From Prostheceraeus crozeri (lineage: Eukaryota; Platyhelminthes; Polycladida; Euryleptidae), in contig CAJQUW010012908.1 of the NCBI GenBank assembly GCA_907163375.1, positions 1-64,000 of the forward strand: a DNA stretch of 64,000 nt, written 5' to 3'. This document shows, piece after piece, positions 42,669 to 62,237 of the stretch. The stretch's first letter is position 1. Each line of letters opens with the position of its first letter. A model generated the notes under the pieces. It worked only from the letters and a program-made list of their open reading frames with translations, had not been told where the DNA came from and searched no databases. The position numbers and the translations under genes are program-made.

Positions 42669-42896
42669 AGTAATGGGTAAAAGACCGTTCCAGGACACCA
42701 TAAAATTCAAAAAAATAGTATCTTTAAAAACGACATAAATTCATGAATTTAGACCCTTTTTCAGGTTTTTAAGACCTAAATACATGGATTTAGTCCATTC
42801 AAAAAGTACCATTTTTTCAAAAATGGTACTTTTTAAAAACGACATAAATTCATGAATTTGAACCCTTTTTCAGGTTATGAAGACCTAAATTCATAA

Positions 42897-42928
42897 ATCG
42901 GCTAAAGCCAGAGGAGCTTCGCTCCGAT
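42897..42928 (+). repeat. Double hairpin in left TIR (type gct/gga)
   Basis: GGCTAAAGCC followed by GGAGC-TTC-GCTCC, bounded by ATCG and CGAT. The same unit, inverted, occurs at 60870-60901 and twice in frame in the polymerase gene. Confidence 0.85.
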
Positions 42929-42990
42929 TTGGGCGTTTTTAAAAATACCCAATTTTCAAATTTTTCAAAATCTCAAATTTGAGAATTACA

Positions 42991-43022
42991 ATCGGGCGAA
43001 GCCCTAGAACCTTCGGTTCGAT
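42991..43022 (+). repeat. Double hairpin in left TIR (type ggg/gaa)
   Basis: GGGC-GAA-GCCC followed by GAACC-TTC-GGTTC, bounded by ATCG and CGAT. Matched by 60776-60807 in the right TIR; related units sit in several genes. Confidence 0.85.
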
Positions 43023-43423
43023 TTTTACCTTGAAAATCATGACCGTTCCAGGACACCGAAAAAATCAGAAAAGTTAAGAATTTCAAATTCATGAATTTTA
43101 TCCATCTTTCAGGTTTTTAAAATATATCATGTGACTAATAATATTTCTTTAAGAATGTAACACAATCTCTTAGAATGCCCGTTATTGTTACTGCTTTGCA
43201 CTCTGATGAACTACCCAATTGTAGGGAACAGCTGCTCCCGCATACATGATATAATTGCAGCTGCTTATCGCATTCCTGAGCCATTGAATTACAGAGCAAG
43301 CAACCCGTATTAAAGATTAAAGATTAAAATGACGTTGAATATAATTGCAGCATGTAGGAAGTAAGACTTCATTTACAATTCCATTAATCATAACTAGTGA
43401 CTGTTTTCTTTCCTTATTGCAAA

Positions 43424-44029
43424 ATGCCAAAACGTACTGCCGCAGAAGCTTTTTCGTTTTACATGCCGATTTTACTAAACTTAATTAAAGAAGAGCACAA
43501 GGAAACTGCGAATAAATACTTTGAAGAGTGGAAGTTAGAAATTCAATCGAGAAAGAAGAACAAATTGGACTCTCAAAAACAAGTGGAGGATATTACAGTA
43601 AAAATAGAACAGTATCTTAACACTACTACAATTCCTCAGTTCAATGTTACAAAAGAACATTTCATTACCATCGAAGATAGTGCTACTATGATTTCAAAAC
43701 TGATTGCAAGTGATAAAGTGCACCATGGGTCGTTGCTGAGAAGTGCTGCTTATCAAGGTTATGGATTTAAAAGAATTCTGGAATTGAGTGACAATAAAAA
43801 AAACAGATTTGTGGTAAACTTGGAACTATTTAGAATTTCCTATAACGTAAGTTATTGTTATTTCTTGATGAACTTATCAGATCTAATTCTACCACACGTA
43901 TTATTTTTAAATTCATCAATGCCCATTAGTTTTGTTAGAAAACATTTTAAAGAAATCAAAATTTATATAGAAAAATTGAATCAACCGACAACTATAGAAG
44001 AAATGAGGTTTGGTTCCCAAGATGAATGA
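43424..44029 (+). CDS. Unknown Polinton protein, 201 aa
   Basis: The start is ATG 43424, in an AAAATG context; an open extension upstream has no ATG. I do not recognise the family. The protein is charged and helical at the N-terminus (EEHKETANKYFEEWKLEIQS), with a mixed middle and a hydrophobic stretch around YCYFLMNLSDLILPHVLFL. It lies in a 1.6-kb block present only in the left arm of the element, so it may be an accessory gene acquired after the terminal repeats were formed. Confidence 0.6.
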   Translation: MPKRTAAEAFSFYMPILLNLIKEEHKETANKYFEEWKLEIQSRKKNKLDSQKQVEDITVKIEQYLNTTTIPQFNVTKEHFITIEDSATMISKLIASDKVHHGSLLRSAAYQGYGFKRILELSDNKKNRFVVNLELFRISYNVSYCYFLMNLSDLILPHVLFLNSSMPISFVRKHFKEIKIYIEKLNQPTTIEEMRFGSQDE

Positions 44030-44115
44030 ACATTAACTGTGTTGTTTCACTTTTTAAGATATGTGCAATGTACATACATATTTGATGTATACATATTTAT
44101 GAAGACTTCTTTATA

Positions 44116-44540
44116 AGTAGTATTGCATTTTGGATTATTTTGAAATGTAATTAAATTTTCTTTTGTTCTCCAGTCTAATGGTAGTAGACTGACATTGTAC
44201 AATTGTATGATAAGATTGATTGTTGTATTATTATATTTGATATTTAAGAATGATTCATGGAACTTAGTAGTATTGCATTTTGGATTATTTTGAAATGTAA
44301 TTAAATTTTCTTTTGTTCTCCAGTCTAATGGTAGTAGACTGACATTGTACAATTGTATGATAAGATTGATTGTTGTATTATTATATTTGATATTTAAGAA
44401 TGATTCATGGAACTTAGTAGTAACACATTTTGGATTATTTTGAAATGTAATTCTATTTTCTTTTGTTCTCCAGTCTAATGGTAGTAGACTGACATTGTAC
44501 AATTGTATGATAAGATTGATTGTTGTATTATTATATTTGA
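44116..44540. repeat. Three 150-bp tandem repeats with open minus frame
   Basis: Copies start at 44116, 44266 and 44416; the third is slightly shortened. The period is exactly 150 bp, so the minus-strand frame stays open through all three copies (151 codons, repeated block VSLLPLDWRTKEN). The frame lacks a good ATG context. It may be a repeat protein or a fortuitous frame; multiples of three alone do not prove coding. Confidence 0.8.
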
Positions 44541-44622
44541 TGCAAAATACACTGCCGTTGTTTTCATTTTCCTGTACAAGAAGTAGACATTATTACAGTT
44601 ATTGGAATTTATTTCATTTAAA

Positions 44623-44770
44623 ATGAATGATGAAAATCCGACAGTTATACTGAGTAATATAGGTGATATATTACCTCAGGTTAATAACATGACTGAGTTC
44701 TTAGAAATATACGACAAACAAACAACTACGTATTTCGATTTAAATAGCATTTCAGAAGATTGTTTTCAAA
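44623..44770 (+). pseudogene. Truncated copy of the protease N-terminus
   Basis: ATG 44623 opens a frame whose segment MTEFLEIYDKQTTTYFDL matches INEFLKLYGTQTTTNFDL at the start of the protease gene at the other end of the element. Similarity stops after about 25 residues and none of the catalytic residues are present. The frame then runs over the start of the next gene. I take it as a leftover of duplication of the element's end. Confidence 0.6.
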
Positions 44771-44798
44771 ATATTTATTCAAAATATGTCTTTAAAAA

Positions 44799-45509: not shown

Positions 45510-45615
45510 AGCGAAAAGATGTCAAACAACAAAGCAATAAAAAAATAATTTGTTCAGTAAAATGTTTTTGCTGTATTCCAATGTTACCACAAAATTCAAA
45601 TATTATATTTTAAAA

Positions 45616-46437
45616 ATGGAAAAAATTAGAGCTGATAATTTTAAAAGAATAAAACAATTAGAAGAGTTAATAAAACAAAGAAATATTATGAAAGAAAATC
45701 ATCTTCAACATAGAATGATAAAAGCTGGTATTCAATCTGATATGTTTGAACAAATGCAGCAAACCGAGCAAGTAAAAACTGATTTTGAGAAAACTATGAA
45801 ACCATTTAAAACTCTTGAAAAAGAAAGTACAAATAATGATAAACAAATTGATATAACAGATCCAGAGCACAAAACTGTATTAGATGACTATGGATTACTA
45901 GAATCAAACATTAATAAGAAATTACCAAAATCTATGCAATTTGAACATTCTATTTCATTTATAGATGGAAAAACAATACCTAGATTTTATCTCGGACAAA
46001 AAGAAATATTTCCACAACCTTTTCGAGGTATAATTTTTTCACCAGATAAATCTCCTTTTAATTTAGATAGAAATTTTGTTAATCTTTTAAGAGGAGCAGA
46101 TTTAAATAATTATGCTGTAGAAGATCTCATAAAATATAAAGCTATGTTAGACAGAGTTGGTGCAGTAAAATCTCTTAGACGTTATAAACAATTAGAAAAT
46201 TTATTATCAACGGGAGTTAAAGTAGGGAAAGGTTTATCTGAAAAACAGAAAACTGAAACAACTGTATTTTTACCAGATGATCCACAAGAATTACTAAATA
46301 GATTAAATATTTTAATATCTGCAATAAAAGAAGGACATAATTCTAGTTTCAATGAAATTCATGCTATATTGAAAAGACTGTTAGAAAAGAAGATTCTAAA
46401 TGAAGAGGATTATAAAAGTATAACCGGACATCTCTGA
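45616..46437 (+). CDS. Conserved Polinton protein of unknown function, 273 aa
   Basis: The ATG at 45616 sits in TTTTAAAAATGG, the element's start context; an upstream in-frame ATG at 45550 lacks it. The N-terminal 90 residues are coiled-coil-like. The C-terminal part, FLPDDPQELLNRLNILISAI with NEIHAILKRLLEKKILNEED, is a helical module I recognise from other animal Polintons, where its role is unknown. The stop codon lies inside a hairpin (GGACATC-TCT-GATGTCC), so the last codons appear to derive from a double-hairpin insertion. Confidence 0.72.
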   Translation: MEKIRADNFKRIKQLEELIKQRNIMKENHLQHRMIKAGIQSDMFEQMQQTEQVKTDFEKTMKPFKTLEKESTNNDKQIDITDPEHKTVLDDYGLLESNINKKLPKSMQFEHSISFIDGKTIPRFYLGQKEIFPQPFRGIIFSPDKSPFNLDRNFVNLLRGADLNNYAVEDLIKYKAMLDRVGAVKSLRRYKQLENLLSTGVKVGKGLSEKQKTETTVFLPDDPQELLNRLNILISAIKEGHNSSFNEIHAILKRLLEKKILNEEDYKSITGHL

Positions 46438-46459
46438 TGTCCTCCAGGGCTTCGCCCGT
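46425..46459 (+). repeat. Double hairpin supplying a stop codon
   Basis: GGACATC-TCT-GATGTCC followed by GGGC-TTC-GCCC. The TGA stop of the upstream gene is formed by the first loop and stem. Confidence 0.85.
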
Positions 46460-46499
46460 AGCTGAAATATGTTGTTTAATTTTTTATTTTTTATCTATG

Positions 46500-46575
46500 A
46501 TTTTTATCTATGATTTTTATCTATGATTTTTATCTATGATTTTTATCTATGATTTTTATCTACGATTTTTATCTA
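46500..46575. repeat. 13-bp tandem repeat
   Basis: About six copies of ATCTATGATTTTT in the gap before the minor capsid gene; probably a promoter-proximal spacer. Confidence 0.85.
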
Positions 46576-46605
46576 TAATATTTATTTAATTTTTTTAGTT
46601 TAAAA

Positions 46606-47394
46606 ATGTGTTCAGCAGATTTAGACAAAATTAATAATCATTTAGAAAATCTAACAGAGATTTTGGGTTCATCAAAATTTAGTACGACGTTAAAAATTAT
46701 AACAACTACTTCATCACACACTTGTAATTTAGAACCCATTCTACATTTGGAACAAAATAAAAATTATCAAATTGCATTGACTAGTTTCTCTACATTTAAC
46801 ACTATTCAAAACGTTATCAAAGATGTGAATGATCAATTTAGATATTCTACTGATAAAGGCAAAACGTGGAAAATATTAACTTTTCTTCCTGGTTCTTACG
46901 AAGTTGAATCAATATCAAATGAAATTAAGAGACATTTAGGTATACCATTTAAAGATAAGAAACAATTACATTTTGCAGTTGAACCGGCAGTTAATAAATT
47001 TTCTCTTACTTTAGACGAAAATCATCAAGTTGATTTTAATCATGATAGATCATTGTCAAAGCTATTAGGATTTAATAAACAAACCTATAGTCAAGGTTAT
47101 CATTTAGGTGAGAAGATTCCAAAAATAACTGAAATAAATTCAATTGTTGTACATTGTGACATTATTGAAGGAGGATATATAAATGGTAAATTATCAAATT
47201 TAATATTCAGTTTTCCAGCTTTTACTGTACCCATTGGTTATAGATTAAATGTAATTCCACAAACATTAATATATTTTCCTATTACAAGAAAAACTATTAA
47301 CAACATTAACATGAGAATCACTGATGAGAAAGGACAAGAAATAAATTTTGGAGGTGAAGAGATTATGATAGATCTTTTGGTTCGAGAGGTATAA
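46606..47394 (+). CDS. Penton-like minor capsid protein, 262 aa
   Basis: Starts at ATG in TTTAAAAATG. The N-terminal part (YQIALTSFSTFNTIQNV) and the following TGKTW-like and LPGSYEVESISNEIKRHLG blocks match the pattern 'ALxxFxTYNSIPNI...GSYEIxxI' of the Polinton minor capsid (penton) protein, a single jelly roll that would sit at the capsid fivefold vertices. Position between the conserved unknown gene and the ATPase is usual for the capsid cluster. The stop codon lies in the first unit of the 21-bp repeat that follows. Confidence 0.75.
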   Translation: MCSADLDKINNHLENLTEILGSSKFSTTLKIITTTSSHTCNLEPILHLEQNKNYQIALTSFSTFNTIQNVIKDVNDQFRYSTDKGKTWKILTFLPGSYEVESISNEIKRHLGIPFKDKKQLHFAVEPAVNKFSLTLDENHQVDFNHDRSLSKLLGFNKQTYSQGYHLGEKIPKITEINSIVVHCDIIEGGYINGKLSNLIFSFPAFTVPIGYRLNVIPQTLIYFPITRKTINNINMRITDEKGQEINFGGEEIMIDLLVREV

Positions 47395-47485
47395 ACTCCC
47401 GTTCGGGAGGTATAAACTCCCGTTCGAGAGGTATAAACTCCCGTTCGGTAGGTATAAACTCCCGTTCGAGAGGTATAAACTCCTA
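47381..47485. repeat. 21-bp tandem repeat, five copies
   Basis: Unit GAGGTATAAACTCCCGTTC, each able to form a small hairpin (GGGAG...CTCCC). It overlaps the last codons and stop of the penton-like gene and ends at the hairpin-like ACGCGAAGCTAG. Confidence 0.9.
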
Positions 47486-47564
47486 CGCGAAGCTAGAGAA
47501 GTTTAATTTTCTTCTTCTTCTTTAAAAACAAAAATAAAATAAAAATAAATTTTTTTATTAAAAA

Positions 47565-48332
47565 ATGAGTGAAGTGCTACCATTAAATAAAAAAAAACTT
47601 AAATTTAATCATCATCCAAATTTATCTAATAAAGTTTTGTCAGTTATTTGTGGAAGATCAGGTTGCGGAAAAACGTATCTATTGTTTAAAATTTTAACGA
47701 CTCCAAATTTTTTGGATTATAACAATCTTATAATTTATACAACAACGGCAGAACAACCCGTCTATCAATTTTTAAAATATGGATTTGAAAATAATCTTAA
47801 AAAAACAGCAATTGCTTCATTATTCAAAGAATATGAAAAATCTGAAGATGAAGAAGAAATAAGTTCGTGGTGTGAAGAAGCAGCAAAAAATAATCAGTTA
47901 GTAGAATCTAATAAAAATAACCATATAAAGATACAATTAATAGATGATAGTGGTAATATGCAAGATCCTAGTAAACTAGATAAAACAATGAAACATTGTG
48001 TAATTTTTGATGATTGTGTTAATGATAGAAATCAGTCAGTTCAGAGAAATTATTTCACAAGAGGTAGACATAATAACTGTAGTGTGTTTTATTTAACACA
48101 AAGTATGTATTCATTAGACGGAAGTGTTATTAGAAAGAATGCAAATATATTTATACTATTTGAAATAAATGCAAGAAACTTAAGTGATTTGTTAAGAGAT
48201 TTATGCGTAAGAAATAAAGATGAATTTAAACAATCGTGTAACAATGCTTGGTCAAAAGATTATGGATTCATTACAATTAATATTGATAAAAAAATTCATG
48301 AAAGAGTTATCGAACAATTGTTCTCTGACTAG
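47565..48332 (+). CDS. Genome-packaging ATPase (FtsK/HerA type), 255 aa
   Basis: Starts at ATG in TTAAAAAATG. Walker A is GRSGCGKT at residues 30-37, Walker B is CVIFDDC at about 145-151, and the sensor-like segment FYLTQSMYSLDGSVIRKNAN follows. This is the A32-like packaging ATPase that drives DNA into the preformed capsid in Polintons, virophages and larger DNA viruses. Length is normal and the frame is intact. A cluster of three hairpins follows directly after its stop. Confidence 0.93.
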   Translation: MSEVLPLNKKKLKFNHHPNLSNKVLSVICGRSGCGKTYLLFKILTTPNFLDYNNLIIYTTTAEQPVYQFLKYGFENNLKKTAIASLFKEYEKSEDEEEISSWCEEAAKNNQLVESNKNNHIKIQLIDDSGNMQDPSKLDKTMKHCVIFDDCVNDRNQSVQRNYFTRGRHNNCSVFYLTQSMYSLDGSVIRKNANIFILFEINARNLSDLLRDLCVRNKDEFKQSCNNAWSKDYGFITINIDKKIHERVIEQLFSD

Positions 48333-48375
48333 GCTTTGCCTCGAGGGGCTTCGCCCCGACTGAAAGTCGATCGAA
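48330..48375 (+). repeat. Triple hairpin after the ATPase gene
   Basis: AGGCTTTGCCT, GGGGC-TTC-GCCCC and GACT-GAA-AGTC follow each other between the converging ATPase and polymerase genes; possible transcription or RNA-processing signal, or an element of the hairpin family. Confidence 0.7.
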
Positions 48376-48474: not shown

Positions 48475-51400
48475 TTAAAAAGGTTCAGTAGTTATTCCAT
48501 CAGGTAAAATTTTTCTTTTATCATCAAATGGATCTAATGCTAATTTATGTTCTTCTTTTAAATACATGTTATGTTTTTTTGAATTAAGTCTATAATTACA
48601 TGCTGTTTTTATTTCATTATTAAATAATACATTTTTATAATCTTGAAATGTTATTTGATTAGCCACTGATGCCTTTGAAATTCCTTTTAATGTTTTATGT
48701 GTTTTAACGGGCGAAGCCCTGGAAGACATCTCCGATGTCCTAATATTATTAGTTGTATCATAACAGTAACATTTAGATTTTAAAAATATAGCTTCTGTTA
48801 TGAAATCTTCATTTCCTTCTAATTCATCTTTTACTTTACATAAATCAGAAGGATGAATGATATCTTTTATTTTATCTATTTCTTCATCAAGTGTAGAATT
48901 ATACGGTATTGTTAATTCTAAGAAAACAGAATCGGTATCTGTAAAGTGTAATTTATAGTTTTTGCCATAAGCAGGTGCTAAATAATCATATATAAATCTA
49001 TACATAAATAGTTTAGCTAATTCTAATATAGTGAAACCAATAAAATTAAACTTATCATGTTTTACGCTAATTCGACGTAAATGTACAGCACATAGTTCAT
49101 CACTAAATCTAGTAGTTCTTTTATATGTAGGTTTCCTTGTTAAATTTTGAAACCTATCTTTATCATAAACTATTTCAATATTTTGTCTATTACGCACATT
49201 TTCTAAAGTCTTACCATAAAATGCATTATTCATTAATTTGAAGAAAACGTTTCCAAAATCATCTTTATTTCTTTTAGCTATTTTACGTTTTTCAATATTG
49301 AACTCTATATAATTTTTTAACCATTTAGATTTTCTATACTCTAGTTTTCGATGTATTTTGGTGAGAATCATGCCATGATCTAAATACCAATCTAGCATTC
49401 TTCCTTCAACAACATACTTTCCTTTATTACCTTGTGTTAACATAAGTTTTTTTGTTGGTCTGTATTTTTTCGGTATTATAGATTTTTGATAATCTGAAAA
49501 ATCTTCTATATTAGGAATTTTGTTTTCGGGACAGAAAGGATAATATTTTGTTGCGTCTTTTATATAATCAGGGTATACTAAATCAACTTCATATACATAA
49601 CCAAAATTATTTTCACCATCATATGTTCTTTGATAATCTAGATCGGGCGAAGCCCTAGTAGACATCTCTGATGTCGCACGATTATTACACCATGACATTT
49701 CACCTGTTGGTAATTCTTGTATCATGCAAGAAGAATATAAGCTATTAAAATCATAATATAACAAATAGTTTTCTCTCATGAATTCATCAATTGCTTTTTC
49801 ACGTTCTACTCCTTCTCGTTTCGTTCGAAAAATTTCTAATATTTTTTCTTTTTCTTCTGGAGATAAAGGTTTCATTATTCCATATTCTTGTAGATTTACT
49901 TTCTTATTATAACATTTAACATATCTATTACCTAAAACTGATGAAACTCCACCTCTAATTCCAGATTCAAAAAATAATAATTTATCATATGTATTTTCTT
50001 TATAATGTTTAAGTTTAACGGACTTTGTCCTAGAGCCATCGGCTTGAACATATGTATGTTTTAATCCTGCTAGCCATGTTAAACCTGGTGTAGAATAACA
50101 ATAACATGGATCTATTCCGTAATATTCTAAACACATATCACGAAAGTTTTCAAAAAGATCAGCTAGTATTAATACATCTATCTGTAGATATTTCATTGTA
50201 TAATCATACATTGTTTTACAATTTAACTCTCTCCAATTTTTTTCAGCTTCTGCATAGTCTTCGTCAGATAATTTTGATTGTTTTAATGCTGATTTAAATT
50301 TATTTATTGGAGGAAGTTGTTTTTCTTCCATAATTTTATTCACAGAATTAAAATCAGTCTTCGACTGTGAACCACAGGTTTTATCTCCAGTTATATCAGT
50401 CTTCGACTGTGAGCCGCAGGCTATATACTCATACGGAAATATGCCTTTTAAAGGTTTTAAATTATATTTATTTAATATTTTACATTGTTCAGATTTCAAA
50501 GTTTTTCCCATAACATCTAATGAATAAGGAGTAAAAAATCTAAATGCATCTAAAATTCTAATACAACCTAATTGCATTGAAAAATATTCTTCTTCTGTTT
50601 TACATAGTACATTTATTTGTTGTTGTTGTAATTTTTCAGATGAAAATAAATCTTTCATTACTAGATGGAAATCATATTTAGAACCATTGTAGAAATATAA
50701 AGGAACAAAGTTATATTTAAATTTATTAGCATTAAGATTACAAGAATTATGTGCTGCACCTCTATATAATCCATTTAGATGATCATGATCTTTTACCTTG
50801 ACGGCAGAGCCGTCGCTTCGCCTATCAAGATATCTACCTTTGCCATTTTTATAATTTTTTGTAAATTCTCTTCCACAGTAATAACATTTTGTTTCATTAA
50901 TAAAATTTAATTTTTCTTTTTCTGTTAATGGCATCATTGGAATATTTGTTTCAAGCAATTGTGAAAAACGTCCTTGTAATTCTTCTACTTTCTTTGTAAA
51001 CATTTCTGAACTATCTTCACCATAGTATTGAAAATATTCTGATTTAAATAAATTAGGATAATTTGAGTGAATGTACATTCCCCAACATAATGGTTTTTGT
51101 TCAAATAAATATTTTTCTTTACTTTGTTCAGCTGAACTTTTTCCAGGTGCACTTTTTTCAGAATTATAATTTTCAGAATCGGGTGAAGCCCTGGAACTTT
51201 CCGTTCGATTTTGTGTCATATTAACATTATATGCTTCAAAATCACAATAAATAGTAAAGGGTACTTTATTTTTAAAATACCATTTATTATATTCTAAATA
51301 ATCATCTTTAGGAAAAGTATTTTGAACTGCTTCATTTTGTTGACAATTCTCCAAATGTCTATTCATTTCTTCTAAAGTTCTAAAACTTGTCATACATTGA

Positions 51401-53241
51401 AGACAAGGAAAATTTTTATTATCTGAAGTTTTTGTAAATATAGAAACATCTTTACACAATATAAAATGACCCTGATAATATAATATATTCGCTTGTGCTG
51501 GTTGTTTTGTCTGTTCTAGTTTTTCAAATTCATCTTTATATATTTCATGTGTTTCATTAATTTCTTTTGTAATATTAAATGTATTTTGATGATAATTTTG
51601 ATTTAATATTTGTAGCTGATAAATATATTCTTTATCATATTGTTCTTTATATTGTTGTAGACATTTTTTTAAACATTCATTTAATCGGAGCGAAGCTCCT
51701 CTGGCTTTAGCCGATTCTTTATTTTCTTCATTATTTAATCGGAGCGAAGCTCCTCTGGCTTTAGCCGATTCTTTATTATTTTCTTCATTTAATTTTTGAA
51801 TTGTTTCTATCTTATTTTGATATTTATGGCCATATTCTTGTACTAATATTTTTGTTTGTTGTTGATAATCTGTTTTACATTTTTGTAAACTTTTATTTAA
51901 ATTTTCTAATTTTTGTTGATATTCTGAAGATAAAGATGAATATTTGTAATTATAATCATCAGTACGTCCTTTATAATTATTGTGATTAATCATTATTGGT
52001 GATAGTGTTTTAACAAGTTCAAATTTTTCAGTACATATTATTTTTCCTTGGTAAAAAATATTATGATGCATGTAATTTCCTCTATCATTATATACTATTT
52101 CTGATTGGCATAAATTTTTATTATTCAAATAAAATTTTTTTGAATCTGAGTAAAGTGGAATAATTTTACCAATAGAAACATAATTCACATTTAATTCAAA
52201 AACATTTACTTCTATTAAATTTTTATTCTTTTTATGAAACTTTTTTAACCTATTATAATCATATGGAAATTCATCTAAGCCATCAGAAAGATCAAATTCC
52301 TTTATATATTCTTCTTTATTATAATGACTTAGTCTTTCTTTATGATATTCTGCAGGATGTAAATGTGCTATAATACTCCACAGAAAACAATAATCATCTT
52401 CATTTTTTATGTTGATTATTTGTGGTGAACTGAAAGGCAAAGGAACAAAAATACCACCAGTATTATTTTTATATTTATCAATTACTATTTTCTTAGATAG
52501 TATTTTAACAAATCTCCAACCAGATTCACGTAACTGGGCTTCAATTATACAATTTTCTAATTTAAGTATCATCGATTCAAATATGGGTTGTATATCATTT
52601 ACATTATGAATTTCTTGTGAATTTGTAAAATGTCCTTGTATTATTTCTTCAGGAATTCCATCAGGTCCATTTTTTGTATAAAGTACTTCTACATTCATAT
52701 AACATTTGAAAGATTTCTTAAATATATTATAAAAGTTGGTTAGAATATCAGAAAAAGTTTTATCGGTTTCATTATATTCAACGGGCGAAGCCCTGAAAGA
52801 CATCTTTGATGTCCCGCGAAAAGACTGATTAAATAAATATTTTATATTTGCTAAGGCTTCATCGTTTCGTTCAGCTTCATCAAATTCATCAGTATCGCCA
52901 ATTAAATATCTTCCATCTGGTACGGGCGAAGCCCTGGAAGACATCTCCGATGTCCCATGTACGGGCGAAGCCCTAGAACCTTCGGTTTGTATGGTCTCAT
53001 CTTCACTATTAAAAACTTTTTTATATTCCGAATGTGAATAATCATCAAACATTTTTTTAACTTTTATATCAGTAGGCAATGTTTCTAGATAGTTTTTATA
53101 ACTATTTAATTTTAATATATTTCCTTCATCAACTCGTTCTACATTTTGTAAATGCAATTTACTATTTAAATGAGATTGATAACTTCTTTTTGTTTGCAAC
53201 TTTTTTTTACATAAGACACAATAAAACTTGGTATTTTCCAT
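48475..53241 (-). CDS. Protein-primed DNA polymerase B, 1588 aa
   Basis: Family B polymerase of the protein-primed branch, expected to replicate the linear element from its ends. Visible parts: C2H2 finger at 6-30 (FYCVLCKKK...H...H), a second at about 610-635 (FPCLQCMTSF...H...C), exonuclease motif DFEAYN at about 667, a Cys/His cluster at about 785-835 (CYYCGREF, DHDHLNGLYRGAAHNSCNLN) resembling recombination endonuclease VII, motif A YYDFNSLYSS near 1165, motif B KLMNNAFYGKTLEN near 1340 and motif C HFTDTDSVF near 1435. It is longer than usual Polinton polymerases, partly because about a dozen double hairpins are inserted in frame (translated as SRASP-, GASLRL- or CGSQSKTD-type peptides). 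The frame is intact. Its ATG follows an A-run on the minus strand. Confidence 0.96.
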   Translation of the reverse strand: MENTKFYCVLCKKKLQTKRSYQSHLNSKLHLQNVERVDEGNILKLNSYKNYLETLPTDIKVKKMFDDYSHSEYKKVFNSEDETIQTEGSRASPVHGTSEMSSRASPVPDGRYLIGDTDEFDEAERNDEALANIKYLFNQSFRGTSKMSFRASPVEYNETDKTFSDILTNFYNIFKKSFKCYMNVEVLYTKNGPDGIPEEIIQGHFTNSQEIHNVNDIQPIFESMILKLENCIIEAQLRESGWRFVKILSKKIVIDKYKNNTGGIFVPLPFSSPQIINIKNEDDYCFLWSIIAHLHPAEYHKERLSHYNKEEYIKEFDLSDGLDEFPYDYNRLKKFHKKNKNLIEVNVFELNVNYVSIGKIIPLYSDSKKFYLNNKNLCQSEIVYNDRGNYMHHNIFYQGKIICTEKFELVKTLSPIMINHNNYKGRTDDYNYKYSSLSSEYQQKLENLNKSLQKCKTDYQQQTKILVQEYGHKYQNKIETIQKLNEENNKESAKARGASLRLNNEENKESAKARGASLRLNECLKKCLQQYKEQYDKEYIYQLQILNQNYHQNTFNITKEINETHEIYKDEFEKLEQTKQPAQANILYYQGHFILCKDVSIFTKTSDNKNFPCLQCMTSFRTLEEMNRHLENCQQNEAVQNTFPKDDYLEYNKWYFKNKVPFTIYCDFEAYNVNMTQNRTESSRASPDSENYNSEKSAPGKSSAEQSKEKYLFEQKPLCWGMYIHSNYPNLFKSEYFQYYGEDSSEMFTKKVEELQGRFSQLLETNIPMMPLTEKEKLNFINETKCYYCGREFTKNYKNGKGRYLDRRSDGSAVKVKDHDHLNGLYRGAAHNSCNLNANKFKYNFVPLYFYNGSKYDFHLVMKDLFSSEKLQQQQINVLCKTEEEYFSMQLGCIRILDAFRFFTPYSLDVMGKTLKSEQCKILNKYNLKPLKGIFPYEYIACGSQSKTDITGDKTCGSQSKTDFNSVNKIMEEKQLPPINKFKSALKQSKLSDEDYAEAEKNWRELNCKTMYDYTMKYLQIDVLILADLFENFRDMCLEYYGIDPCYCYSTPGLTWLAGLKHTYVQADGSRTKSVKLKHYKENTYDKLLFFESGIRGGVSSVLGNRYVKCYNKKVNLQEYGIMKPLSPEEKEKILEIFRTKREGVEREKAIDEFMRENYLLYYDFNSLYSSCMIQELPTGEMSWCNNRATSEMSTRASPDLDYQRTYDGENNFGYVYEVDLVYPDYIKDATKYYPFCPENKIPNIEDFSDYQKSIIPKKYRPTKKLMLTQGNKGKYVVEGRMLDWYLDHGMILTKIHRKLEYRKSKWLKNYIEFNIEKRKIAKRNKDDFGNVFFKLMNNAFYGKTLENVRNRQNIEIVYDKDRFQNLTRKPTYKRTTRFSDELCAVHLRRISVKHDKFNFIGFTILELAKLFMYRFIYDYLAPAYGKNYKLHFTDTDSVFLELTIPYNSTLDEEIDKIKDIIHPSDLCKVKDELEGNEDFITEAIFLKSKCYCYDTTNNIRTSEMSSRASPVKTHKTLKGISKASVANQITFQDYKNVLFNNEIKTACNYRLNSKKHNMYLKEEHKLALDPFDDKRKILPDGITTEPF
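48708..48740. repeat. In-frame double hairpin in the polymerase
   Basis: GGGC-GAA-GCCC and GACATC-TCC-GATGTC. Read on the minus strand as TSEMSSRASPV, between motif C and the C-terminus. Confidence 0.85.
49642..49676. repeat. In-frame double hairpin in the polymerase
   Basis: GGGC-GAA-GCCC and GACATC-TCT-GATGTC, translated TSEMSTRASPD, just after motif A. Confidence 0.85.
50019..50046. repeat. In-frame double hairpin in the polymerase
   Basis: GGAC-TTT-GTCC and AGCC-ATC-GGCT, translated ADGSRTKSV. Confidence 0.8.
50355..50422. repeat. Two in-frame double hairpins in the polymerase
   Basis: Units at 50355-50380 and 50398-50422, each CAGTC-TTC-GACTG plus AACC-ACA-GGTT or AGCC-GCA-GGCT. Note that the stem bases of the second hairpin differ by compensating changes while pairing is kept. 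Translated as paired CGSQSKTD peptides. Confidence 0.85.
50800..50823. repeat. In-frame hairpin in the Cys/His cluster
   Basis: GACGGC-AGA-GCCGTC with a weak second GC-TTC-GC. It inserts RRSDGSAVKV between the two halves of the endonuclease VII-like zinc cluster. Confidence 0.7.
51178..51209. repeat. Decayed in-frame double hairpin
   Basis: ATCG-bounded GGGTGAAGCCC and GAACTTTCCGTTC: both stems have mismatches, unlike the other units, so this is an older copy. Translated NRTESSRASPDS. Confidence 0.75.
51684..51769. repeat. Tandem pair of in-frame double hairpins
   Basis: Identical units at 51684-51715 and 51738-51769 (GGAGC-GAA-GCTCC plus GGCTTTAGCC, ATCG/CGAT bounded) in a 54-bp tandem duplication, translated twice as ESAKARGASLRL in a coiled-coil stretch. 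Confidence 0.88.
52781..52990. repeat. Three in-frame double hairpins near the polymerase N-terminus
   Basis: Units at 52781-52815, 52921-52955 and 52960-52990, all starting GGGC-GAA-GCCC; the first two have GACATC...GATGTC as the second stem, the third has GAACC-TTC-GGTT. Confidence 0.85.
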
Positions 53242-53905: not shown

Positions 53906-54712
53906 ATTTTCAGATGTTTCTGAATCATCATCTATATTATCATAAGATTCTTTAAGATCGGGCAAAGCCCTAGAATCTTCGGTTCGTTTATTATGATTAT
54001 GATTATGGTCATTGTTAATAGTATAAGGTGTAGTCCACATATAAATTTTCTCTTGTTGAGCTAAACCATTTATATAAGATTTTAATAAATTAATATTTAA
54101 GTTGGAATATAATCCTATATACGTATCATCATCATATCTTTGGGGCATTTCTAATGTTTCTTGTTTATAAATTGTGTCTCTATAATAAACTTGACATAAT
54201 AATTCTTCATTATGTTTTTTACTCTCTATGTGAATGTTATATTGATTTTGATCGTCAACAAATAATCTAATTTTTTCTTTCGAAAAAGATTTTAATTTTT
54301 TAACTAATTCTTTAATATTTATATAATTAATAATTTTATTTTCTATCCAATCAGTATTACTAATCGGCAAAACTGCTCTGATAAACCCATATACATTATT
54401 ATGACCTATTATAACCATATTTTCTTTATTTAATTCAACATAAGCTACATCATTATATTTACTTACAATCTCCATAAATTTAATAAATGGGTCACCTGGA
54501 AATAAACAATAATTAGTTTCTATAGAAGGTAAACCTTTAGTCTGTTCTCTAAATATTTCGGATTGTAATTGAAACAAAAGATTAACATCTATACATGGAT
54601 TATTATTATTATTATTATCAAAACATTTATTTTCAAATCCCGTTGATCTCGTCGAATAAGAAGAACAGGATGATGCGGGCGAATATAATTTTTTTAAATT
54701 TGGATTTTCCAT
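53897..54712 (-). CDS. Possible PCNA-like clamp, N-terminal part, 271 aa
   Basis: ATG 54712 lies in an A-rich start context, divergent from the fibre-like gene. After a low-complexity Asn-rich start the protein has a pattern reminiscent of the first sliding-clamp domain: FIKFMEIVSKYNDVAYVEL, then INYINIKELVKKLKSF and KIRLFVDDQNQYNIHIES. No definite motif proves it; other beta-rich replication proteins remain possible. A double hairpin at 53957-53986 is in frame (KRTEDSRALPD). The frame ends where the next one, shifted by one base, continues. Confidence 0.45.
   Translation of the reverse strand: MENPNLKKLYSPASSCSSYSTRSTGFENKCFDNNNNNNPCIDVNLLFQLQSEIFREQTKGLPSIETNYCLFPGDPFIKFMEIVSKYNDVAYVELNKENMVIIGHNNVYGFIRAVLPISNTDWIENKIINYINIKELVKKLKSFSKEKIRLFVDDQNQYNIHIESKKHNEELLCQVYYRDTIYKQETLEMPQRYDDDTYIGLYSNLNINLLKSYINGLAQQEKIYMWTTPYTINNDHNHNHNKRTEDSRALPDLKESYDNIDDDSETSENGL
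53957..53986. repeat. In-frame double hairpin in the clamp-like gene
   Basis: GGGC-AAA-GCCC and GAATC-TTC-GGTTC (one G-T pair), bounded by ATCG on the left. Confidence 0.75.
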
Positions 54713-54816: not shown

Positions 54817-55705
54817 AATGATGTTACCAAATGTTGGTGGAGGTGCATATATCCCGATAATCGTGAATTAGAAATAGAGATAGAAAATTATATCATGAAA
54901 ACTGGAGACGTTTTATCTGGACCATTGCATCTTTCTATTCTTCCGCAACAAAATACAGAGTTAACAAATAAACAATATGTTGATACACAAATCAATGACT
55001 TAAAGGAAAAATATATAAACGATGTTTTGGTTCCACTGATGAATGAATTAAAGTTGCTAAAACTTAATGACAAATCATTAAACGAAAAATTATTAAAACT
55101 TGATAAAAAGGATAGAGAGCTAGAAGCAGATATAGCAAAACTTTTTAAAAAGATTTCTGAACAATCAAAAATTTTAATATTACTTTCTTTAAATTTAAAA
55201 TCTGCTGTAATTAAAAATAAACATCAGATAAAAATGTTAAAAGAACAATTAGAAGATGAAATAGAAAAACTACCTGAAAGAATTAAAAAAAATTTAAAGC
55301 AGTTACAAACTACATTCCAAAAAAAGTGTTGATGAATTGAGTTCTAAAATTACTCAACAAATGAAAAAGATGAATAGAATAATAAATGAAGTAAACTCAC
55401 TTAATCAAAAAGTTGATAAAATGAAAACTCTTAAAATCAATTTAGAAAATGAATTAAAGAAAAATTTACAAGAAAACTCTAAAGAAAATAAAGAACAGTT
55501 AGATGCTGTTAAAAGACAATTAGATGTTCTTAAAATTAAGTTAAATGCTCTTAAAACGGCATTGAAGATTAATCAGCAGAAAATGCAAGTTAATAGAAAA
55601 GAAATTAAAGTACATCACACGCTGCTTGACGCAATAGATAAAGTGCAACAGTCAATTAATAAAGTTATCTCGAAGTTGTTGTCCATTCACAAACGTAAAT
55701 CTTGA
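54817..55705 (+). pseudogene. Fibre-like coiled-coil protein in three frames
   Basis: ATG 54817 has the element's TTTAAAAATG context, but its frame stops after about 18 codons (MLPNVGGGAYIP...). The open frame 54895-55332 continues with GDVLSGPLHLSILP and TNKQYVDTQINDL, a motif pattern I know from phage tail-fibre N-termini, then a long coiled coil. It ends at a stop after an A7 run (55319-55325), and the coiled coil goes on in another frame to 55705. Two one-base shifts, one at a C-run near 54850 and one at the A-run, thus split one protein of about 295 residues. A surface fibre or spike is the natural inference. Sequencing error in homopolymers is possible. Confidence 0.6.
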
Positions 55706-55863
55706 TCGGAGCGAAGCTCCTCAGGTTACTAACCAATCGGACCGAAGCTCCTCGAGGCTTTAGCCGATCGGACCAAAGGTCCTCAGGTTACTAACCAATC
55801 GGAGCGAAGCTCCTCGAGGCTTTAGCCGATCGGACCAAAGGTCCTCAGGTTACTAACCGATCG
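55705..55863 (+). repeat. Tandem cluster of double hairpins
   Basis: Five or six hairpin pairs in a row: GGAGC-GAA-GCTCC or GGACC-AAA-GGTCC alternating with GGTT-ACT-AACC or GGCTTTAGCC, joined by CAATCGG or CGATCGG. It directly follows the fibre-like gene's stop, showing that units can stack end to end. Confidence 0.9.
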
Positions 55864-55902: not shown

Positions 55903-56460
55903 ATGCCTATAATTTATAAACACAATCTTAAACATTTTGCATCAAATAATAAAATTGCTCATGAACCATCTCAGAAACCTGTGTACCATTATGATAGTGT
56001 AGAAACTGTCGGAACACAAAAGTTCCTAGAAAAGACGTTCCAAAAAGAAGGGGCTGGCATCTTTTCTGGTATTGGAAGTATCGTTAACTTAATTAAAAAT
56101 AATAAAGATTTGATTACATCTGCTGCAAAAGGAGCAGCTGCTATAGGTAGTACAGCTAGTGCAATATCAAATGCTGTTAAATCTCAAAACGAATTAAAAC
56201 AACTAGAAGCTATTCGTAAACTTAGGAATGATTCTGAAGAACTAAAAAATTTAAAAAAACTTTCAGATGAAACAAAAAATAAAATTGCTAACATAGCTGT
56301 GGGGGGTGAAACCTTGAGGAGCGGAGCTCCGTCTAATAGTAAACATAATGAAAATAAAAATAATAAAAAAACAATTGAAGAAATAAGAGGTAATGGCGTC
56401 AGCAGCAACCTTCGGTCTAACCAGCAAAGCTGTAGCGGAGCTGGTCTAGCAAAATTCTAA
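55903..56460 (+). CDS. Virion-type membrane-active protein, 185 aa
   Basis: Starts at ATG in CTAAAAAATG. The N-terminal 45 residues are polar (KHNLKHFAS, YHYDSVETVGTQKFLEK). Residues 50-95 form an amphipathic to hydrophobic Gly/Ala-rich stretch (GAGIFSGIGSIVNLIKNN, TSAAKGAAAIGSTASAISNA), then a charged coiled coil. This layout resembles adenovirus protein VI-like entry proteins in Polintons and adintoviruses. The last third contains hairpin-derived residues (LRSGAPS, NLRSNQQSCSGAGLAKF), so the C-terminus may be recent. Confidence 0.6.
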   Translation: MPIIYKHNLKHFASNNKIAHEPSQKPVYHYDSVETVGTQKFLEKTFQKEGAGIFSGIGSIVNLIKNNKDLITSAAKGAAAIGSTASAISNAVKSQNELKQLEAIRKLRNDSEELKNLKKLSDETKNKIANIAVGGETLRSGAPSNSKHNENKNNKKTIEEIRGNGVSSNLRSNQQSCSGAGLAKF

Positions 56461-57886: not shown

Positions 57887-58035
57887 TTAAAATTTTTCAT
57901 AACTAGAATAGATTAAAATTTTTGTTAACTTAAAAATTCTTAACTTAAAATTTTTTCATAACTAGAATAGATTAAAATTTTTTCATAACTAGAATAGATT
58001 TAAATTTTTGATAACTTAAAATTTTTTTATTAAAA
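57887..58035. repeat. AT-rich 27-bp repeats
   Basis: Copies of TTCATAACTAGAATAGATT separated by AAAATTTTT stretches fill the gap before the next gene; likely promoter spacer. Confidence 0.75.
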
Positions 58036-58521: not shown

Positions 58522-58524
58522 TAA

Positions 58525-58545
58525 CCTCAGGACCTTTGGTTCTTT
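58525..58545 (+). repeat. Hairpin between virion gene and PLA2-integrase gene
   Basis: GGACC-TTT-GGTTC with one G-T pair, preceded by CCTCA, matching half of the double hairpins in 55705-55863. Confidence 0.7.
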
Positions 58546-59100
58546 TCGGTAAAACTTTTATTTTATCTTTTAAAAGTTTTTTATCTTTAAAAATGGATAC
58601 CGCAAATTCCACAAATTCAGAAAATTTAATTAAATTAAAAATTGCTAATTTAGATTTATTAAATTATCTATTAAACAAAAATAAAAACTCAAACTGTCAG
58701 CATATTGGAGGTGACAAGAACAAAGTTCCACACCACTTCGGTGGTGATATACAAAAAACATTAGAAAACTTTCCTGGATTTATTTGGAGTAAATATTCGA
58801 AAGAAAAACATCTTCCTGGTCATTCATATACTGGGCCAGGAACTCGATTAGATATAAGACTAGATGAGAATAATAATCCGAAACCAGGTGAAGAACCAAT
58901 AAATAGAGTAGATGCCGCCGCTTACAGGCATGATTTAGCTTATCGAAATCATGATCTAAGTTCTCGTCATGCAGCTGATAAGAAGATGATTCAAGAATTA
59001 GATAGTATTCAGAATCCTACATTTAGAGAAAAAATTGAAAGAATGTTTGTTAAGAAAGCTTTACAAGCTAAAATATTATTCGGACAGGGTTTAAATGAAA

Positions 59101-59160
59101 CGACAGCAAAGCTGTCTGAGAGCAACGCTCGAACTAATAACTCTGAGAGCAACGCTGGAA
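59101..59160 (+). repeat. Double hairpins forming the PLA2-integrase linker
   Basis: ACAGC-AAA-GCTGT followed by GAGC-AAC-GCTC, and then a second GAGC-AAC-GCT half unit. Both are in frame (KLSESNART, NSESNAGT). Confidence 0.85.
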
Positions 59161-59276
59161 CCTACGCGTCCGAAATCCACAAGGAATATAGAAGGCCTAA
59201 ATATTTATTGAAAGTAAAAGTATTTAATAAAGATGATATTTGGAGTGCTGATCTTATTCATATGCCGAATGAAAGG

Positions 59277-59309
59277 GACCGAACCGAAGGTTCTAAGACA
59301 AAGTCTGAC
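59277..59309 (+). repeat. In-frame double hairpin in the integrase core
   Basis: GAACC-GAA-GGTTC followed by AGAC-AAA-GTCT, nine codons after the first catalytic Asp; translated RTEGSKTKSD. Confidence 0.85.
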
Positions 59310-59980
59310 TACAAATACGCATTGACCGTTATAGATTTATATACACGATATGCTTGGGTAAAGCCTTTAAAAAATAAAAGTGGTCTTTCAGTTAAATATG
59401 CGTTTGAAGAAATCTTTAAAGAAAGTAATAGAAAGCCAAAAAAATTGTTTGTTGATAAAGGGTCGGAATTTTATAACCGAAACGTTCAGCCACTATTTGA
59501 AATTGTTTATTCAACTGAAAACGCTGGGAAGGCCGTAGTGATAGAAAGATTCAATCGGACGTTAAAAAATATAATTTTCAAAAAATTTACTCAGCAAGGA
59601 AATCAGAAATGGTTGAAGATATTACCAGGAATTGTAGAAGAGTACAATAATAAAGTTCATTCTGGTATTGAAGAAACCCCAAAGAATGCTTCTGACGACC
59701 CTGATTTGATACGAAAGAAAATATTCGAGAATAATAATTTGAATGAGAGTAATCCGAATTTGCAGAAACTTAAGCCAAAATTTAAAATTGGAGATAGAGT
59801 TAGGATATTTAAATATAAGAATAAATTTGAAAAAGGCTTTGTTGGCTATTGGACTAAAGAAATATTTGAAGTTACAAAATAAATCAAAGTTATCCGATTA
59901 CTTATGAAATTAAAGATTTAGATGATGAAGATATCAGAGGCCGATTTTATCAAAATGAATTACAGAAAACAGAGCTTTAA

Positions 59981-60014
59981 CCTCTAGGTGGCGCTTTAGC
60001 TAGCTTCGCTTGAG
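59981..60014. repeat. Hairpin pair between converging genes
   Basis: GCGCTTTAGC and AGC-TTC-GCT type stems in the short gap between the integrase end and the protease end. Confidence 0.55.
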
Positions 60015-60503
60015 TTATAGATTGTTTAACTCTAACATAATATCTAGAAATGATACTCCTTTTTGTAATTTGTACAAAACGTATAAACATAATTGCCCAC
60101 AATAAGTTGTTCCCGGTTTTTGAATTTGAAATGTATTATAAATTCCATTGCCAAGTAATTCTTTTACTTCATTTGTAGGGGGCAAACCGTATGAGTCGAA
60201 CCAATAGTTCTCAGCCTCCGGGCGGTCAAAATAATAGTTCTGCTGATAATTTTTAACGCCTGCTGACCAATGTACACCTTTTTCATTTGACGTATGAAGA
60301 TTTGTTATGAAATTTACAGTTATTGATGGAACTTTGTTCCGGGAACTGAAGGTTCCTGTTGGCTTATTTTTTAGGAATTGTAATTCGTCTCTCATTAGAA
60401 CATGAAAATTCTTTATTCCTAATTCATTTGCGATTTTCTTTAGGTCGAAATTTGTCGTAGTTTGCGTTCCATATAATTTTAAAAACTCATTTATGTTGTT
60501 CAT
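60015..60503 (-). CDS. Adenovirus-type cysteine protease, 162 aa
   Basis: Minus-strand frame from an ATG preceded by TTATAAA. Catalytic residues fit the adenain/Ulp1-like fold: His78 in GVHWSAG, Asp103 in WFDSYG and Cys135 in TTYCGQLCLYVL. In Polintons this enzyme is the maturation protease that trims capsid proteins. Length is slightly short and the frame intact. A double hairpin at 60327-60357 is in frame (TGTFSSRNKVP), ahead of the catalytic His. A truncated copy of its N-terminus is at 44623. Confidence 0.9.
   Translation of the reverse strand: MNNINEFLKLYGTQTTTNFDLKKIANELGIKNFHVLMRDELQFLKNKPTGTFSSRNKVPSITVNFITNLHTSNEKGVHWSAGVKNYQQNYYFDRPEAENYWFDSYGLPPTNEVKELLGNGIYNTFQIQKPGTTYCGQLCLYVLYKLQKGVSFLDIMLELNNL
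60327..60357. repeat. In-frame double hairpin in the protease
   Basis: GGAAC-TTT-GTTCC and GGGAACTGAAGGTTCC on the plus strand; one mismatch in the second stem. Confidence 0.8.
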
Positions 60504-60575
60504 TTTATAATAAAAAAATTTCTTAAGGGACCCCTAGAAGTCAGAAGGGACCCCTAGAAGTTAGAAGGGAGGGGG

Positions 60576-60660
60576 TAGTAGAACTACGTTCATATGATAT
60601 TGAAGGATATATTCTTGCGGCTTCTTCCACTTTTGTTTCTTCCACTTTTAAAGAAATATT
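60576..60660 (-). pseudogene. Decayed inverted copy of the membrane-protein start
   Basis: The reverse complement matches 44785-44880 (GCAAGAATATATCCTTC, CATATGAACGTAGTTCTACT), but the start ATGs have become GTG and the frame ends after about 25 codons. It adjoins the right terminal repeat directly. Confidence 0.75.
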
Positions 60661-61239
60661 ATTAGTCACATGATATATTTTAAAAACCTGAAAGATGGAT
60701 AAAATTCATGAATTTGAAATTCTCAACTTTTATGATTTTCGGTGTCCTGGAACGGACATGATTTAAGCAATGAAAATCGAACCGAAGGTTCTAGGGCTTC
60801 GCCCGATTGTAATTCTCAAATTTGAGATTTTGAAAAATTTGAAAATTGGGTATTTTTAAAAACGCCCAAATCGGAGCGAAGCTCCTCTGGCTTTAGCCGA
60901 TTTATGAATTTAGGTCTTCATAACCTGAAAAAGGGTTCAAATTCATGAATTTATGTCGTTTTTAAAAAGTACCATTTTTGAAAAAATGGTACTTTTTGAA
61001 TGGACTAAATCCATGTATTTAGGTCTTAAAAACCTGAAAAAGGGTCTAAATTCATGAATTTATGTCGTTTTTAAAGATACTATTTTTTTGAATTTTATGG
61101 TGTCCTGGAACGGTCTAAATTCATGTATTTAGGTCTTAAAAACCTGAAAAAGGGTCTAAATTCATGAATTTATGTCGTTTTTAAAGATACTATTTTTTTG
61201 AATTTTATGGTGTCCTGGAACGGTCTTTTACCCATTACT
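60646..61239 (-). repeat. Right terminal inverted repeat
   Basis: About 594 bp matching the left repeat, longer because a unit of 110 bp is tandemly duplicated (first copy from 61021, second from 61131). Double hairpins at 60776-60807 and 60870-60901 mirror those of the left repeat. Confidence 0.93.

Positions 61240-62235: not shown

Positions 62236-62237
<2 letters not shown>

Follow-up and report, generated by a model that had tools for sequence, protein, structure and literature searches.

The Polinton in the analysed stretch of Prostheceraeus crozeri DNA (64,000 nt, referred to as the window) carries about 33 short hairpin units. We consider these units to be very small non-autonomous mobile elements that insert in Polinton DNA and likely spread as folded single strands during Polinton replication (rough probability 0.66). 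This is the best reading because the stems covary, the sampled units are present only in Polinton DNA, the inserts are missing from outside Pol B proteins at the seven sites open to alignment, and the second hairpin varies between copies. The unit cores leave no room for a gene of their own. All findings on the units refer to one genome.

The host Polinton spans 18,571 nt (42669-61239) and is flanked on both sides by the 6-bp target duplication GCCCTT (42663-42668 and 61240-61245). It has the AG...CT termini and the long terminal inverted repeats of Maverick/Polinton elements, and its repeats are 97.7% identical over a 473-nt alignment. The gene set is also that of Mavericks/Polintons, with a protein-primed Pol B, a retroviral-type integrase, a packaging ATPase and a double-jelly-roll (DJR) capsid protein. 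Domains for the DJR capsid (PF21738), the integrase (rve, PF00665) and PLA2 were found in the window Polinton, while the ATPase and Pol B were assigned via relatives bearing PF04665 and PF03175, respectively. Pfam applied directly to the window Pol B revealed only zinc fingers, and a search by sequence found no convincing solved relative of this protein. The unassigned genes showed merely weak matches to phage families.

A typical unit has a core of 28 nt (CG, hairpin, T/TA(G), hairpin, CG), and core lengths range from 19 to 37 nt; a few of the units, all located with hand-made patterns, have a single strong hairpin. When hairpins were defined by a stem of 4 or more, 3 or more G/C per stem arm and a loop of 3-4, the Polinton contained 45 hairpins, whereas 20 dinucleotide-shuffled versions averaged 4.0 and reached 8 at most; adjacent hairpin pairs numbered 11 compared to 0. 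Host DNA from the window (42,600 nt) harbored 43 hairpins versus 36.8 after shuffling, and no adjacent pairs. More than 20 paired-hairpin units had been claimed in an earlier note on this DNA, which was borne out, as was their presence in both terminal repeats, in gaps, in a stack at 55705-55863 and in genes. The two hairpins quoted there, AACC-ACA-GGTT and AGCC-GCA-GGCT, lie in the pPolB units at 50355-50382 and 50397-50424. Loops of 3 nt predominate, as had also been stated, and of the 30 distinct triloop hairpins that the polymorphic inserts contain, 29 have C-G as the loop-closing pair. The bounding ATCG and CGAT were seen often but do not form a fixed border: they result from the CG ends of the core together with the duplicated target dinucleotide, which is often AT.

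Pairing was said to be kept while the stem sequence varies. In 13 hand-picked 28-nt cores, 95.2% of the stem cells were paired versus 83.7% in shuffles, and the covariation score was 0.452 versus 0.200, with none of 500 shuffles as high. Covariation also exceeded that of slid registers, so the chance level that would have spoken against the claim was not observed. For both-side-changed pairs and further pair types, the same 13 cores showed no excess over shuffles, and stem length and register vary among units. Stem compensation in the units is real. Folding predictions for single units as DNA gave only a modest gain over shuffles (z -1.0 to -2.3). Among 50 distinct G+C-rich inserts, which were called blind to structure, 21 had two hairpins and 21 had one (0.7% and 17%, respectively, in shuffled sequences). 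Rfam models at gathering score did not match within the window.

Table 1. Positions of the host Polinton and of hairpin units in the window
Feature	Positions	Strand	Remarks
Host Polinton	42669..61239		ends AGTAATGGG...CCCATTACT; GCCCTT flanks; gene domains
Unit, left terminal repeat	42899..42926		GGCTAAAGCC / GGAGCTTCGCTCC; flanks AT..AT
Unit, left terminal repeat	42993..43020		GGGC-GAA-GCCC / GAACC-TTC-GGTTC; flanks AT..AT; polymorphic in sister copies
Unit over stop codon, 45619-46437 gene	46424..46458		sisters have another second hairpin, or none
21-bp hairpin-bearing tandem array, end of 46606-47394 gene	47381..47487		different repeat type
Unit directly 3' of ATPase stop	48331..48357		3/11 copies have units after the ATPase gene
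pPolB unit	48708..48740	-	36-nt insert, TAA/AA duplication
pPolB unit	49644..49680	-	39-nt insert, AT duplication; sister L070 has a 30-nt unit at identical bases
pPolB unit	50019..50046	-	30-nt insert, AA duplication
pPolB unit	50355..50382	-	CAGTC-TTC-GACTG / AACC-ACA-GGTT; 30-nt insert
pPolB unit	50397..50424	-	CAGTC-TTC-GACTG / AGCC-GCA-GGCT; 30-nt insert, AT duplication
pPolB unit	50799..50822	-	24-nt insert
pPolB unit	51180..51207	-	five of the aligned sister copies have a second hairpin of GACATC type here
Two GGAGC/GGCTTTAGCC units in pPolB	51686..51767	-	starts 54 nt apart
pPolB unit	52782..52818	-	39-nt insert, AA duplication; sisters of AACC type
Two tandem units in pPolB	52923..52989	-	sister comparison
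Unit within 54712-53897 gene	53959..53986	-	pattern search; sister comparison
Five-unit stack, period 31, AT joining neighbours	55707..55858		sequence reading
Two units close to end of 55903-56460 gene	56310..56433		patterns; sister copies
Hairpin immediately past stop of 58036-58521 gene	58523..58542		patterns
33-nt insert, PLA2/integrase gene	58716..58748	+	overlap 1 bp only
Unit within PLA2/integrase gene	59101..59131	+	two sisters: 33-nt insert, AA duplication
Unit within integrase gene	59280..59307	+	30-nt insert, AC duplication
Unit within 60503-60015 gene	60197..60224	-	sister L071: 30-nt insert, GT duplication
33-nt unit, 60503-60015 gene	60327..60359	-	polymorphic in sisters
Unit, right terminal repeat	60778..60805		mirrors 42993-43020
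Unit, right terminal repeat	60872..60899		mirrors 42899-42926

The boundaries of the units were defined as the earlier note had suggested, by comparing filled and empty Polinton copies. Across 31 Polinton stretches the units appeared as precise presence/absence insertions, mostly with a 2-bp duplication. At most sites, filled and empty sister copies for each pPolB unit aligned base for base outside the unit. The target overlap, taken as the best over the copies of a cluster and thereby inflated, was at least 2 bp in 25 of 29 site clusters compared to 7% in simulated blunt insertion, and less than 2 bp in the other 4 of 29. These numbers were obtained after 12 of 79 G+C-rich calls (overlap >6, tandem repeats) had been dropped ahead of clustering; without four tandem or compound clusters, 21 of 25 showed an overlap of at least 2 bp. 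Thus, a short direct repeat, a trait considered for likeness to GC clusters and double-hairpin elements (DHE), flanks the insertion in 25/29 site clusters. An exact 2-bp duplication together with a core starting with C could not be placed in 8/29 clusters, and overlaps of 3 or more were commoner than a pure 2-bp model gives. The duplicated dinucleotide is variable (AT, AA, TA, AC, GT, AG). A duplication of 3 bp was the first idea and was replaced by 2 bp once the cores were seen to have C as their first and G as their last base. Judged by the comparison of copies, insertion was precise, and two target base pairs were duplicated at the majority of sites.

The length of the insert was a multiple of three for 52 of 53 calls in genes and for 11 of 14 calls outside genes. 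As for Rickettsia palindromic elements, insertion into protein genes was in frame. Four modules in genes had a single orientation in all 69 coding copies, while units outside genes occur in either orientation; the fixed orientation in genes is stronger than frame retention alone demands. It would fit the sense-strand intermediate of an RNA route, in which a unit would first be transcribed and its RNA then copied back into DNA at breaks in the Polinton, and RNA-mediated spread was also proposed for yeast GC42 (PMC4478555). Such a route is nevertheless unlikely, given that either orientation is found outside genes, that the preferred phase requires selection anyway and that no added-A tract was seen by eye at the listed junctions.

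The 16-nt unit pattern had 9,255 exact matches in the 2.05-Gb genome and the reversed pattern had 1. All 36 stretches that were fetched around matches, picked by the analyst and partly from clustered matches, were Polinton DNA on contigs of the 2.05-Gb assembly; none of the fetched units was organellar. Nine recurrent unit stems had 27 matches in the Polinton and 0 in the remaining 45 kb of the window. The units show an apparent confinement to Polinton DNA. A genome-wide MITE-like family, which is moved by a host nuclear transposase and merely often met in Polintons, would explain why the target is duplicated and why copies are so numerous. Against this, 36/36 fetched stretches were Polinton, modules had 0 matches in the host part of the window (45 kb), and single hairpins vary at one site, which makes such a family quite unlikely.

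Two further candidates were rejected. One was a family shared with viral contigs. The 16-nt pattern occurred once each in 47 contigs with a G+C content of 0.45-0.71; any second hairpin was present in just 1 of the 47, and three full-unit patterns matched none. No relative turned up when viral contigs were searched with the capsid. Transfer of a unit to a very different Polinton was considered for stretch L091, where an integrase (37%) adjoins a terminal repeat carrying a unit. This unit sits in an ordinary terminal repeat of the present family.

Different copies bear different second hairpins at 7 of 12 sites, according to a manual count with registers merged, one degenerate hairpin type read by eye and the second unit of one tandem pair left out. 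The automated tally, in which some units appear twice in two registers, gave 7 of 21 clusters. The four-gamete test was failed by 36 of 45 pPolB site pairs (12 copies), as expected for a recombining pool; in the underlying presence table states are coarse, degenerate units are scored as present, and the partial copies L059 and L066 are left out. Unit presence was linked to flanking differences at only 2 of 8 sites, so that recombination, repeated insertion and loss are indistinguishable. Four features go beyond the earlier note: single hairpins are exchanged per site, two target base pairs are duplicated, the units seem restricted to Polintons, and their orientation within genes is fixed.

In mimivirus, polyadenylation follows a hairpin rule. 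Several units of the Polinton lie just past stop codons and two are found in each terminal repeat, which could point to cis-signals (transcript 3' ends, polyadenylation, packaging, origin) that are maintained by selection. Hairpins were present after the gene in 8 of 10 sister copies for the 45619 gene, in 3 of 11 for the ATPase gene and in 4 of 12 for the capsid gene. Since units are missing after the same gene in some sister copies and many units are located mid-gene, a function as cis-signals is very unlikely. This patchy presence also led us to reject a general role as transcript terminators.

Inserts common to all relatives would have contradicted an origin by insertion. Six outside Pol B proteins were without inserts at the seven positions that could be aligned; at some of these, the inserts interrupt conserved blocks. 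Old gene parts precisely lost in some copies, a reading left room by presence/absence without direction and by four N-terminal pPolB sites that have no alignable outside counterpart, are hardly credible and largely refuted already by these relatives and by the direct repeats that flank most filled sites. Of 215 unit-derived 5-residue words tested, isolated words were found in 14 of 177 outside proteins, one of which had two; we read these as chance matches.

Polymerases of this class perform protein-primed strand-displacement replication. For the mobile elements that we favor, we propose a route in four steps, of which the insertion itself is seen in the comparison of copies and the enzyme and the spread during replication are what we infer. 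Strand displacement would expose long single strands, on which units could fold. A nuclease may cut with a 2-nt stagger, a copy of a unit would be joined, and gap filling would give rise to the 2-bp duplication. Template switching between units with common first 17 nt could swap one hairpin in place, and selection would purge insertions that shift the frame or produce poorly tolerated peptides. Only tentatively, at somewhat under even odds, do we suggest that the units represent a hyperparasitic class of hairpins specific to Polintons, which would move as ssDNA in protein-primed replication, with size and phase tolerated by proteins and with hairpins swapped in place.

To our knowledge, mobile double hairpins have so far been a curiosity of organelles and bacteria, with a mechanism that is not known. 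The units described here have a nuclear home, and the literature searched held no report of such hairpin units in a nuclear virus-like transposon. With thousands of copies and many sisters with empty sites, the junctions of insertions, the choice of target and the exchange of modules are open to direct inspection. Because the units sampled do not leave Polinton DNA, they offer a test for a virus-like, co-replicating Polinton stage, which they would mark if they moved only on Polinton DNA in replication; if the tentative reading as a hyperparasitic class is true, the insertion pattern would be a lasting record of Polinton copies co-replicating outside chromosomes like viruses. The units also show a natural route for short peptide inserts into conserved proteins, e.g., DNA polymerase.

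The likeness to DHE and Rickettsia palindromic elements noted earlier is good with regard to architecture and in-frame insertion, and two adjacent hairpins with variable stems are shared with GC clusters and DHE. The GC clusters in yeast mitochondria (GC42 and related clusters) are likewise short, G+C-rich and hairpin-forming and lie in AT-rich DNA; they differ in presence between strains, have variant forms at one homologous site and contain pieces with a common 13-nt start that merge and shuffle (PMC4478555). They are mitochondrial and mostly intergenic, whereas the Polinton units reside in a nuclear transposon and many of them in genes, and their flanking direct repeats are AG or ACT in contrast to a variable dinucleotide (PMC4478555). 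The DHE of chytrid (Allomyces) and Schizosaccharomyces mitochondria also consist of two adjacent G+C-rich hairpins, are thought to be mobile and are present in rRNA genes as well, but they are organellar and few (5, 14 and 1 copies in three fission yeasts) (PMC10085805). The cited passages on DHE make no mention of a target duplication (PMC10085805), and the likeness drawn here is one of description. In sponge mitochondria, repetitive hairpin-forming elements, some of them double, have invaded an animal genome; unlike the Polinton units, they are mitochondrial and mainly intergenic (PMC2800124). Rickettsia palindromic elements occur as in-frame insertions in protein genes that are unrelated to each other, with differing types per locus; they are 100-150 bp long, are located on bacterial chromosomes and are often common to different species at one locus (PMC10969869, PMC3767692). 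The Polinton units, with a typical core of 28 nt in a 2.05-Gb genome, are set apart from the 100-150-bp elements of Rickettsiales by size and host; their cores of 19-37 nt are polymorphic between copies of one transposon.

The Polinton of the window, which harbors genes for Pol B, a packaging ATPase, a double-jelly-roll capsid protein and a PLA2/integrase protein, has a G+C content of about 22–33% per kilobase. Hairpins of at least 4 pairs whose stem contained 3 or more G/C occurred 45 times in this element (4.0 expected), and 11 pairs of adjacent hairpins were present versus 0 expected. The host DNA of the window (42.6 kb) contained 43 hairpins versus 36.8 expected and no adjacent pairs. By use of hand-made patterns, 33 units, short GC-rich inserts typically with two predicted adjacent hairpins, were located in the Polinton. 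The hairpin and unit counts confirmed the claim of the earlier note that more than 20 such units are present. Nine recurrent unit stems had 27 matches in the Polinton and none in the remainder of the window.

Features of the Polinton and of adjoining DNA in the window
Position	Feature	Remarks
42669-61239	Polinton	start AGTAATGGG, end CCCATTACT; GCCCTT flanks both ends
42801-42834 and mirror 60964-60997	perfect 15-bp A+T-rich hairpin (AAAAAGTACCATTTT...)	present in each terminal repeat; differs from the units
43397-44029	210-aa frame	between left terminal repeat and first common gene
44100-44545	three near-identical direct repeats	~150-nt period; lie between 210-aa frame and next gene
47381-47487	21-bp tandem array GAGGTATAAACTCCCGTTCG	copy number differs among sister copies
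48708-51207	seven unit sites in Pol B	alignable to outside proteins
51686-52989	four N-terminal unit sites in Pol B
55707-55858	five-unit stack	period 31; units joined by AT
59800-59990	integrase frame	stops earlier in window copy; sister copies read on
61109-61239	additional copy of outer ~110 bp of terminal repeat	right side
62236-63320	long GA-rich simple repeat	host DNA adjoining Polinton

We aligned the Pol B gene (pPolB) of the window with 13 sister stretches, taken from other Polinton copies of the same genome. Units were present in some copies and cleanly missing from others; near 51686–51767 the alignment was repetitive and less clean. Insertions were also called blind to structure, as every clean 15–150-nt insertion between pairs of 31 stretches. 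This resulted in 353 filled sites, 79 of which were 20–45 nt long with a G+C content of at least 0.42. Among the distinct G+C-rich inserts with an insert/target overlap of at most 6 (n = 50), 21 had two hairpins, 21 had one and 8 had none, versus 0.7%, 17% and 82%, respectively, after shuffling. The hairpin content of A+T-rich inserts (n = 25) was like that of their own shuffles.

For the analysis of the borders, 67 insertion calls were merged into 29 site clusters, and the overlap was taken from the best copy of each cluster. Overlaps of 0, 1, 2, 3, 4, 5 and 6 were found in 2, 2, 10, 7, 3, 3 and 2 clusters, while simulated blunt insertion gave an overlap of at least 2 in 7%. An exact 2-bp duplication with a core starting with C could be placed in 21 of the 29 clusters, and with a core starting with CG in 17, by our own count; overlaps of at least 3 were in excess of a 2-bp duplication. 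Many of the C-starting cores end with CG or TG. The typical core of 28 nt leads to 30-nt insertions, and the duplicated dinucleotides include AT, AA, TA, AC, GT and AG. The ATCG...CGAT borders described earlier are thus not one entity: they result from a 2-bp duplication plus CG core ends (AT+CG...CG+AT), with AT as the duplicated target. The tandem stack would fit insertion of incoming units at the edges of existing units.

We tested covariation on 13 hand-picked cores in one register, excluding units of other registers (e.g., GGAGC/GGCTTTAGCC). Paired cells amounted to 95.2% versus 83.7% in shuffled sets, and the covariation score was 0.452 versus 0.200, with none of 500 shuffles as high. 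Both values fell when the partner was slid by 1–3 columns. Pairs changed on both sides (3 versus 2.7 shuffled) and further pair types (9 versus 8.3) showed no excess in these cores. The statement of the earlier note that stems vary while pairing is kept was confirmed by paired cells and score. A C-G pair closed 29 of 30 distinct triloop hairpins of the inserts. Loops such as GAA and GCA, when closed by a C-G pair, form some of the most stable mini-hairpins in DNA. The predicted DNA folds of individual units had energies of −4.2 to −7.3 kcal/mol, with z-scores between −1.0 and −2.3.

To examine the units inside genes, we aligned the encoded Pol B with six outside Pol B proteins. At all seven alignable sites the inserts were missing from the outside proteins, although at the first site one of the six falls short and another has a long unrelated insert. 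Units shared by related Polinton proteins, which would speak against insertion, were thus not found at these sites. Two of the seven interrupt conserved blocks such as PGLTWLAGLK. The four N-terminal sites have no alignable outside counterpart and are hence uninformative. Insert length was a multiple of three in 52/53 coding and 11/14 non-coding calls, with calls at one site being non-independent. Four modules (recurrent unit types) had a single orientation in all coding copies (41/41, 6/6, 16/16 and 6/6), representing by our own reading about 7 or 8 independent sites for the first module and one or two for each of the others. Of the commonest module, 37 copies were open in the SRASP phase and 10 in a different one; the other three modules read AKARGASL, CGSQSKTD and ADGSRTKS, with phase nearly as fixed as orientation. 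By our reading of its sequence, the first module has three further open frame/orientation combinations, so either peptide-level selection or biased orientation must be at work.

The commonest unit type consists of a common CGGGCGAAGCCCTRGAA followed by an AACC or a GACATC hairpin. Both kinds of second hairpin occurred at the same bases in 7 of 12 sites with at least two copies (registers merged by hand). In 12 pPolB copies, all four combinations of the four-gamete test were found in 36 of 45 site pairs, and unit presence was linked to nearby differences at only 2 of 8 sites. The pattern is compatible with recombination among copies, and units gained and lost repeatedly may also produce it. In three sister stretches (L072, L067 and L065) some units have tandem GCGAAGC expansions or extra pieces following the second hairpin, which suggests slippage at hairpins.

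The unit pattern GGGCGAAGCCCTRGAA had 9,255 matches in the 2.05-Gb genome (14,165 contigs), and the reversed pattern had one. We took 36 stretches around matches chosen among the first 100 in the list, a few of which are adjacent; 20 stretches were 10 kb long, 10 were ~5 kb and 6 were ~3 kb. All 36 were Polinton DNA; since the picks favored clustered matches, the share of matches outside Polintons is only loosely constrained. The assignment was based on proteins for all 10-kb and nine of the ~5-kb stretches, on terminal-repeat sequence judged by eye for the remaining one (L080), and on protein or nucleotide matches for all six ~3-kb stretches.

A role as general transcript-end signals was rejected, as hairpins after the stop were optional (8/10, 3/11 and 4/12 copies for three genes). 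Three full-unit patterns had no match in viral contigs; the 16-nt pattern used for the genome matched once in each of 47 viral contigs, 46 of them without any second hairpin. Rfam gave no match in the window.

We favor a model in which the units would move as folded single-stranded DNA while the Polinton replicates. This class of polymerase works by protein priming and strand displacement. A unit lacks the length to hold an enzyme gene of its own. The 2-bp duplication points to a cut with a 2-nt stagger, and template switching at the 17-nt shared start would account for the hairpin exchange.

As excerpted from the published accounts, yeast mitochondrial GC clusters likewise show flanking short repeats (AG or ACT), polymorphism and shuffling of pieces (PMC4478555), double-hairpin elements have a fold in common with the units (PMC10085805), in-frame insertion is also a feature of Rickettsia palindromic elements (PMC10969869, PMC3767692), and related repeats occur in sponge mitochondria (PMC2800124). 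The excerpted part of PMC12220804 describes nested retroelements in Polinton-like viruses and names no units of this sort. Titles and abstracts of the mostly open-access literature, bioRxiv preprints excluded, reported no such units in Polintons/Mavericks.

The 210-aa frame had its sole match among the 31 Polinton stretches in L058 (29%) and showed a weak match to a functionally uncharacterized phage family. It is possibly cargo of the window's Polinton copy.
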